Assembly: GCF_963259705.1 (NCBI RefSeq)
Contig: NC_081861.1
Location: 109,274,102 to 109,338,101 of the forward strand
Length of the DNA: 64,000 nt
DNA from: Myotis daubentonii
Lineage: Eukaryota > Chordata > Mammalia > Chiroptera > Vespertilionidae
Reading direction: 5' to 3'
Part shown: piece after piece, positions 57,466 through 58,224 of the stretch
How positions within the stretch are numbered: the stretch's first letter is position 1
Layout: each line of letters opens with the position of its first letter
Translations under genes and position numbers: made by a program
The notes under the pieces: model-generated
Seen by the model: only the letters and a program-made list of their open reading frames with translations
Databases searched by the model: none
What the model was told of the DNA's origin: nothing

Positions 57466-58224
57466 TGTTGTGCCCAGATTTCAAGGTTCCCAGGACCCCC
57501 AGGGAGCCCGTCAGTCCAATGCAAAAGCAAAGAGTCCTTCATTTCGAACTAGTTCGGCTCCCCGACCACACTCACTGATGCAACGGTAGCCCAGTGGCCG
57601 AGAGAGAGAGGCCTGATGGGATTGTGGGTTTTATAGTAAGGGCAGGGGAGGGGACTGTGGGCCCCGCGGATTGGCCAGGCGCGAGTTGGGTCTTGTTACA
57701 CAGGATGTGGTCATATTGATGGCGTGCACTTTCCTTGATTATCATTGGCTAGTCCAGAGAAATCCTGGGCGTGGCCAGCAGAGGCCTGGGCCTCCAGGAA
57801 GAAGCCCCCGCCAAGCACATGGCTCTGCCCAAAAATGGAGGACCCAGGGCAAGATGGAGGGCGCAGTCCTCACCCCCCCAAGGGCGAGCTGAGCTCGGGC
57901 TCCAGGGGCCAGTCTGGTTGCCGGCGGTCCAGCAGATCGACCAGTCCCAGCCCAGACAGGAAGTCCACGTCCTCCATCTCGTCCCCGGGGCGCTGGCGAT
58001 TGCCTCCTCCTCCATCTCCTCGGGCGAGGGCACACGCCCCTCCCCACCGCCACTGCTACCGCTGCTGCATGGGTCCGGTCCGGGGCAGCGGGCGGGTGGC
58101 CTGCGCCGGGCTCCCGCCGTGGGCTGGGGAGTCGGTGCCTGAGGCCGCTAGCAGTGTGGTCAGGCTGTGCCTCATGGGGCCCGGGGGCCGGCCCACGTAG
58201 GCGCCGCGATGACTTGCCCTTTCA
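57466..58224 (-). mobile_element. LTR unit fused to captured CREBZF sequence
   Basis: A 759-bp unit with minus-strand ends TG (58224) and CA (57466), flanked by the 5-bp repeat GAATC (57461-57465 and 58225-58229). Its left 408-416 bp look like a retroviral LTR on the minus strand: CCAAT boxes (AGCCAATGAT, GGCCAATCCG), a TATA box ACTATAAAACCC (about 57627-57638) and an R/U5 ending GGGCACAACA. The remaining 343 bp are derived from the host gene CREBZF. A G run with TG (TTGGGGGGGTGAGGAC, near 57873) lies at the junction and could be a polypurine tract next to an LTR start. Confidence 0.75.
57882..58224 (-). pseudogene. CREBZF: Captured 5' part of CREBZF (Zhangfei), interrupted
   Basis: On the minus strand an ATG at 58175 opens MRHSLTTLLAASG, which matches the start of CREBZF, an ATF/CREB-family bZIP protein that binds HCF-1 and represses transcription. 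Further on come SPEEMEEEAIAS (shifted frame) and DFLSGLGLVDLLD with RQPDW, again in the order found in CREBZF. A TAG at codon 40 (58058-58056) and two frame changes break the reading; about 30 residues present in the human protein before SPEEM are missing. The bZIP domain is absent because the match ends at about 57882. 58176-58224 would be 5'UTR. No intron information is available, since this part of CREBZF is one exon. The GC content is far above that of the surrounding intron. Identity is from memory of the protein. Confidence 0.82.

Follow-up and report, generated by a model that had tools for sequence, protein, structure and literature searches.

How does a piece of a host gene come to lie inside the long terminal repeat (LTR) of an endogenous retrovirus (ERV)? 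The question is raised by a 759-bp unit on the minus strand of a 64-kb window of the Myotis daubentonii genome (64,000 nucleotides of contig NC_081861.1), at 57466-58224 of the window, in which a sequence-only reading had recognized an LTR joined to the 5' part of the gene CREBZF. That reading left two models, one with CREBZF sequence inside U3 of a solo LTR, the other with the unit as the 3' end of a provirus whose internal region had been replaced by CREBZF. The analysis described here makes it very likely that a gammaretrovirus-like (class I) ERV left the unit as a solo LTR, with a U3 that carries a CREBZF piece taken up by template switching and carried along as a passenger.

The unit runs from TGAAAGGGC to GGGCACAACA as a complete solo LTR (57466-58224, minus strand, 759 bp), with a GAATC target-site duplication at 57461-57465 on the side of the U5 end and at 58225-58229 on the side of the U3 end. 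Taken alone, this repeat is weak evidence, because TG...CA ends with a 5-bp repeat occur by chance in 0.6 %, 2.2 %, 8.8 % and 22.6 % of random window pairs (search ranges of +-15, 30, 60 and 100 bp, respectively) and because the GAATC next to U3 is shared with the 16-bp duplication of a neighboring short interspersed element (SINE); it becomes solid through the target-site duplications of other copies. These were sought in the window's own genome (2.13 Gb, 121 contigs), the one genome from which all copy counts given here derive. For the 759-bp unit a first look gave 2248 candidates, of which the best 40, including the window copy, were scored; they are the copies nearest to the window copy and thus an uneven sample of the family. 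Among them, 37 match unit positions 1-759 at 89-100 % identity, all 40 end in GGGCACAACA, and the flanks differ except in a few segmental duplicates (L021, L023, L036 and L038 have common flanks; L078 and L079 share the same 3' flank). An exact duplication of 4-5 bp surrounds 24 of the 37 full-length copies, the window copy again included, compared with 9 of 1332 mismatched flank pairs, which bears out the minus-strand TG...CA unit with its GAATC repeat as the sequence-only reading had described it. No second copy of the unit was found within the 64-kb window, and three patterns of the unit LTR gave no match in public viral contigs. The nearly equal flanks of L021, L023, L036 and L038, all on contig C1 at 127.9-131.2 Mb, are a separate observation and indicate a segmental duplication carrying the LTR.

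The part of the unit free of CREBZF (57466-57875, minus strand) comprises the rest of U3, R and U5 and is homologous to sister LTRs that lack CREBZF. Pattern matches on the same strand place CCAAT boxes at 57744-57748 and 57670-57674, a TATAAA box at 57630-57635 and the AATAAA variant AATGAA at 57538-57543, which would hold the position of the polyadenylation signal of R; as patterns, all four stand where U3 and R would be expected to have them. The proviruses complete this picture. In nine provirus pairs, taken from among the junction matches listed below, a primer binding site reading TTTTGGGGGCTC.CCCGGGA or nearly so follows the 5' LTR in every case, directly after its ACAACA end, and the LTR-like character proposed for this half of the unit is confirmed; a similar run-on follows two of the 40 scored copies (L002, L030). 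On the other side of the LTR, the polypurine tract AAGACAAGGGGGGGAA precedes L018 and L033, and a tract precedes the 3' LTR in eight of the nine pairs (the ninth begins inside U3); the pair L030/L033 likewise has a primer binding site and a tract at its inner edges. Because this tract lies directly before TGAAAGGG in the proviruses, the LTR starts at TGAAAGGG and not at TGAGGAC, and the window copy is a solo LTR. Its U3 terminus (58213-58224, minus strand) reads TGAAAGGGCAAG, and TGAAAGGGCGAG in many other copies. The window copy would be a single insertion reduced to a solo LTR through LTR-LTR recombination, and the site before this insertion would read ...AAAAAAGTGGAATCAACAACTC... without the unit.

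The same observations dispose of two related explanations, namely that the unit consists of two unrelated neighbors, an LTR and a CREBZF retropseudogene, or that it is a proviral 3' end in which CREBZF forms the internal region. The G-run TTGGGGGGG at the 3' junction (57873-57881, minus strand) does resemble the end of a polypurine tract, and TGAGGAC at 57866-57872 could then be taken for the start of an LTR. However, the true tract is found before TGAAAGGG, and the G-run is no polypurine tract. TGAGGAC reads CGAGGAC in four of the six copies displayed (L018, L032, L039, L020), TCTAGGAC in L013 and CGAGGAC in many sister LTRs without CREBZF; its TG is best read as a decayed CpG rather than as an LTR start. 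The pattern of the CREBZF/U3 junction (at most two mismatches) is matched 388 times in the genome and its control once; in this figure each 5' LTR, 3' LTR and segmental duplicate is counted as one, and copies of greater divergence escape the pattern. All 40 scored copies carry CREBZF up to both outer junctions, the opposite of the unshared junction that unrelated neighbors would leave. The CREBZF part of the window unit also shows neither a poly-A tail nor a long target duplication, the hallmarks looked for of a processed pseudogene made by L1. Both explanations are refuted and retain practically no probability, and the proposal of a replaced internal region falls with them; the shared junction, the tract before TGAAAGGG and the like start of CREBZF-less LTRs favor the model of CREBZF inside U3.

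Where the GC-rich half comes from can be stated closely. It matches human CREBZF in a tblastn search with an E value of 9e-18. The host gene was found through its bZIP part at L071 on contig C10 (93 % over the 227 residues searched); its frame is open, and 304 of 358 residues (85 %) are identical to human CREBZF. A weak second match of the bZIP part, L072 (G000:C7:96960110-96960262; 49 % over 51 residues), is perhaps another bZIP gene. Three blocks of the unit, all on the minus strand, are collinear with L071 and lead in sense orientation from the 5' untranslated region (5'UTR) to codon 130. Block 1 (58199-58220; unit 5-26) corresponds to L071:889-910, some 220 bp 5' of the ATG, with 20 of 22 bases identical. 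Block 2 (58059-58206; unit 19-166) corresponds to L071:1080-1231, with 136 of 152 bases identical, and holds the end of the 5'UTR and the coding start, with the start codon at 58173-58175. Block 3 (57882-58051; unit 174-343) corresponds to L071:1330-1500, with 155 of 171 bases identical, and runs to the LSSP codons. The identification of this half as CREBZF, from the 5'UTR to LSSP and in the orientation of the LTR, therefore stands, and the alignment to the bat locus again favors an insert within U3. Blocks 1 and 3, which lie at the outer junctions, are present in all 40 scored copies, block 1 being shorter in some, and block 2 is present in 38. The longest exact match to host CREBZF measures 26-84 bases across the 40 copies and 25-46 bases in the 18 LTRs of the nine provirus pairs, and exact matches of 12 bases or more are absent from 22 CREBZF-less sisters. 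Since the copies keep T7, a residue in which L071 differs from the human protein (34 of 40 copies, those readable by script), the donor was probably this lineage or a close one.

The sister LTRs without the insert offer a clean comparison of the states before and after the capture. A pattern combining the polypurine tract with the U3 start gave 123 matches in the genome (control 15), and 30 of these loci were read, 8 with CREBZF and 22 without. The 22 begin with TGAAAGGGCGAGGACT or close variants, that is TGAAAGGG(C/T)(G/A)AG, then GACT or GGCT and the remainder of U3, the sequence varying somewhat (e.g., L088, L091, L102); their longest match to unit positions 350-759 is 69-83 % identical, in some over part of the stretch. 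Thus LTRs lacking CREBZF exist and share the start of the unit, which was one of the checks proposed for the two models and favors the first. Among 20 further places read, 3 carry CREBZF, 12 are CREBZF-less relatives, 3 are LTRs similar in R and U5 alone and 2 have no match. A query restricted to the LTR part yielded 7 new copies among the best 40 of 2247 candidates scored, and the 5 of these that were read all carry CREBZF; it was the polypurine-tract pattern that led to the CREBZF-less LTRs. Because sister LTRs begin with the same terminus, the insertion point of CREBZF can be placed: the ancestral U3 was most likely an uninterrupted TGAAAGGGCGAG-GACT..., and the derived one reads TGAAAGGGCGAG-TCATCG...CREBZF...GCTCGCCC-T(T)GGGG...AGGACT.... 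In a FastTree phylogeny of the shared LTR part (408 columns), 46 CREBZF-bearing and 22 CREBZF-less sequences separate cleanly with a local support of 1.0; L074 and L076, duplicates of L033 and L018, were left out, columns with gaps in over half of the rows were removed, and the row of L099 is short (157 bases). The CREBZF-bearing copies form one clade, which supports a single capture event. A different kind of variation is seen in L104-L106, where an LTR with the same polypurine tract and similarity in R and U5 has another U3 (TGAAAAGACAGAACATGACAG...), a possible exchange of U3 within this ERV group.

What took the piece out of CREBZF and put it into U3? The 5' junction lies in 8 bp, AGGGCGAG, common to the CREBZF-less sister LTRs and the host gene (L071:889-896). 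Two internal deletions separate the three blocks. The first removed 177 bases between two CGGGGCCT repeats of L071 (903-910 and 1080-1087), an 8-bp direct repeat; the second removed about 85-100 bases in a GGC-rich repeat and varies in size among copies. Splicing was considered as the source of the first deletion and was ruled out, since neither edge has GT-AG and the 8-bp direct repeat is found instead. Template switching fits the 8 bp shared at the 5' junction, the deletions flanked by short repeats, an insert in sense orientation and a 5' edge that lies before the ATG. During reverse transcription in the particle, the reverse transcriptase would have left the viral U3 at a GGGCGAG stretch and copied a co-packaged CREBZF mRNA in the direction of the mRNA 5' end; at the 8-base homology AGGGCGAG, within a few bases of the terminus required by integrase, it would have switched back to the viral template. 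Two more slips between short direct repeats would have deleted the 177 and about 85-100 bases. From then on, reverse transcription would place the insert in both LTRs of each later copy, because it lies in U3. The same template-switching step is part of the published model for LTR-mediated retrocopies (PMC5408686).

An alternative is capture at the DNA level, in which a provirus that adjoined CREBZF or lay within it recombined with the genomic gene, and the altered provirus was later transcribed and spread. With block 1 some 220 bp before the ATG and no interruption in the genomic coding stretch of the donor, DNA and mRNA donors would look alike. Strand transfer by reverse transcriptase nevertheless fits the 8 bp shared at the 5' junction and the loss of bases between short repeats (CGGGGCCT; the GGC-rich stretch), and in some later copies more of this region has been deleted. 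We consider a DNA-level origin quite improbable.

Several points weigh against template switching in a gammaretrovirus-like element as the origin of the unit. At the 3' junction, T or TT and extra G's are supplied by neither parent. The RNA-level step would be argued from the junctions, for the coding part of L071 is one uninterrupted match to the unit and thus provides no known intron the loss of which would prove an mRNA; the point at which CREBZF transcripts begin in this bat would likewise bear on an mRNA donor. As to the retroviral class, 16 of the 24 duplications in the set of 37 are 5 bp long, although gammaretroviruses would be expected to make clean 4-bp duplications, and five short frames near the LTRs have no Pfam match, with no match in PDB for the two of them run against it. 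Two of these LTR-near frames were called Gag-like by eye, again with no Pfam match, and the one of this pair compared with PDB found none there. In the provirus pairs the duplications are 4 bp in six of seven scorable cases and 5 bp in one, and the form of the primer binding site presumably corresponds to tRNA-Pro. The label of class I, worded as gammaretrovirus-like, would thus draw on the form of U3, primer binding site and polypurine tract and partly on known motifs. The junctions of the nine pairs are about 3.85-4.03 kb apart, leaving about 3.2-3.3 kb between the LTRs; a complete gammaretrovirus has about 8 kb. These short proviruses were probably helped in trans, a view that their size, too small for a complete gammaretrovirus, suggests.

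Does the insert do anything for the element? If it were kept for an encoded peptide, a U3 frame would join the N terminus of CREBZF to some 50 residues coded by the LTR, in the manner of sag. Some copies (L015, L018, L032, L039) do read on in frame for about 140-155 codons, the DFLSG motif is kept in the frame of the ATG in 7 of 40 copies, and in-frame stops in the aligned codons are few (2). Most copies, however, are out of the CREBZF frame, the window copy among those that end early, with a stop after 39 codons. The 40 copies compared with the host gene show 153 distinct substitutions in well-aligned codons, of which 59 are synonymous against 53.7 expected under a null model preserving base and CpG context (P 0.12), and 1 creates a stop against 2.1 expected under the same context-matched null. 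CpG sites alone lean weakly to synonymous change (39 vs 35.1, P 0.09, range 0.07-0.09). A raw pooled dN/dS of 0.52-0.56 had suggested constraint and was dropped, as it is not significant when base and CpG context are controlled for. For a 61-residue frame, 28 homologue candidates were found and none was scored, and no match came from Pfam (two frames) or PDB (one frame).

Also bearing on the peptide is a subfamily with the tract variant AAGACAAAGGGGGGAT, in which the CREBZF start codon is lost in all 22 members examined; at least 26 members with the exact variant are present among the matches listed. The start codon is also absent from all 18 LTRs of the nine provirus pairs. In this subfamily 20 substitutions are synonymous against 19.8 expected, which is no constraint, and the frame open from an internal ATG in most members is given no reason by the null test to be called functional. 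With synonymous counts near chance, most copies frame-shifted and the start codon deleted in the subfamily, retention for a peptide is extremely improbable. In the members L112, L114, L123-L142 and L143-L160 the loss of the start codon is due to a further deletion.

An aid to transcription is a second role to be weighed, the insert being part of a CpG-island 5'UTR placed in a promoter-proximal repeat. U3 enhancers sit upstream of CCAAT and TATA boxes; the insert lies upstream of both and is GC-rich (73 % GC and a CpG observed/expected ratio of 0.69 in the window copy), and the family that bears it is numerous and partly recent. On the other hand, the CpG positions of the insert have changed in 422 of 2260 cells (18.7 %) compared with 318 of 7348 (4.3 %) elsewhere, a decay that points to a probably methylated insert. 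It is no more conserved than the remaining LTR (mean pairwise divergence 0.082 vs 0.060), different parts of it are missing from some copies and from one subfamily, and CREBZF-less sisters have spread as well. An enhancer effect is possible; that the insert has been kept for one is rather unlikely. Most likely, it is a passenger at a place in U3 where insertions are tolerated, with no sign of upkeep as a protein.

A further, very improbable reading treats the insert as a shield or hostage: as the copies retain stretches identical to the host gene, germ-line small RNAs directed against the LTRs could also strike CREBZF. CREBZF is a stress and antiviral regulator; silencing of the family would then cost the host this regulator, or the family would tune it, and the persistence of a seemingly non-coding piece in recently spreading members could be explained. 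More generally, the unit raises the testable question of whether near-identity to a host mRNA affects the germ-line silencing of an ERV.

How recently the family has spread can be read from the LTR pairs of the nine proviruses. These pairs fall in the subfamily without the start codon. Five pairs are without difference over 623-715 bp, two have one mismatch, and the remaining two have 8 differences in 672 and 12 mismatches plus gaps in 718; the older pair L030/L033, in which the start-codon region is present, has 27 differences in 769. At an assumed substitution rate of about 2.5e-9 per site and year, the insertions would date from less than 0.3 to about 7 million years ago. To judge by the identical pairs, some insertions are recent enough that polymorphism may persist at their sites.

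Host sequence taken up by retroviruses is known from several systems, and to our knowledge those described concern coding sequence in the internal region. A CREBZF piece next to the integration terminus in U3 is instead doubled with every LTR, and hundreds of gene pieces are thereby distributed genome-wide. The transforming genes v-jun, v-fos and v-maf, captured by acute transforming retroviruses, are also cellular bZIP genes, but they carry the bZIP domain and act through their protein, whereas the captured part of CREBZF stops before that domain. The sag gene of mouse mammary tumor virus is extra sequence in U3 and so present in both LTRs, as in the unit, yet it is a maintained gene, which nothing indicates for the CREBZF insert. 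Double-copy retroviral vectors, in which foreign DNA near the U3 terminus is copied into both LTRs, resemble it in design, but they are engineered and the CREBZF-bearing LTR is natural. In crocodilians, CrocERV29 with KIT-ligand and CrocERV31 with nectin3 are ERVs that took up host sequence and amplified it along with themselves (PMC4299795). The captured genes there have open coding frames under reported purifying selection, nectin3 replacing env, in contrast to the unconstrained 5' fragment in U3 described here. LTR-mediated retrocopies such as maize Bs1 share the template switching at short similarities and the often partial mRNA copy, but in those (PMC5408686) that copy lies between the LTRs, whereas here it became part of the LTR. 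MLERV1, a Myotis gammaretrovirus, is likewise a retroviral family of a bat genome; its paper gives 4-bp duplications as typical of gammaretroviruses, and the string 'captur' is absent from its main text (PMC4643047). The titles and starts of abstracts listed yielded no report of CREBZF capture or of host-gene sequence in the U3 of a mammalian ERV, a weak negative with subscription papers and repeat databases outside its scope. One of two papers with both CREBZF and 'endogenous retrovirus' names Crebzf as a gene near a VL30 copy.

The surroundings of the unit hold further repeats. The adjacent SINE, outside the LTR at 58240-58467 on the minus strand, is bounded by the 16-bp duplication AGAATCAACAACTCTT at 58224-58239 and 58468-58483 and has relatives in other parts of the window. 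About 70 bp from the unit, an LTR-like stretch recognized by eye on the minus strand at 56940-57400 (TGTAGAGAGTGCC..., with AATAAA) seems to be of another family. Farther away, a tandem array with a 47-bp step occupies 40207-40926.
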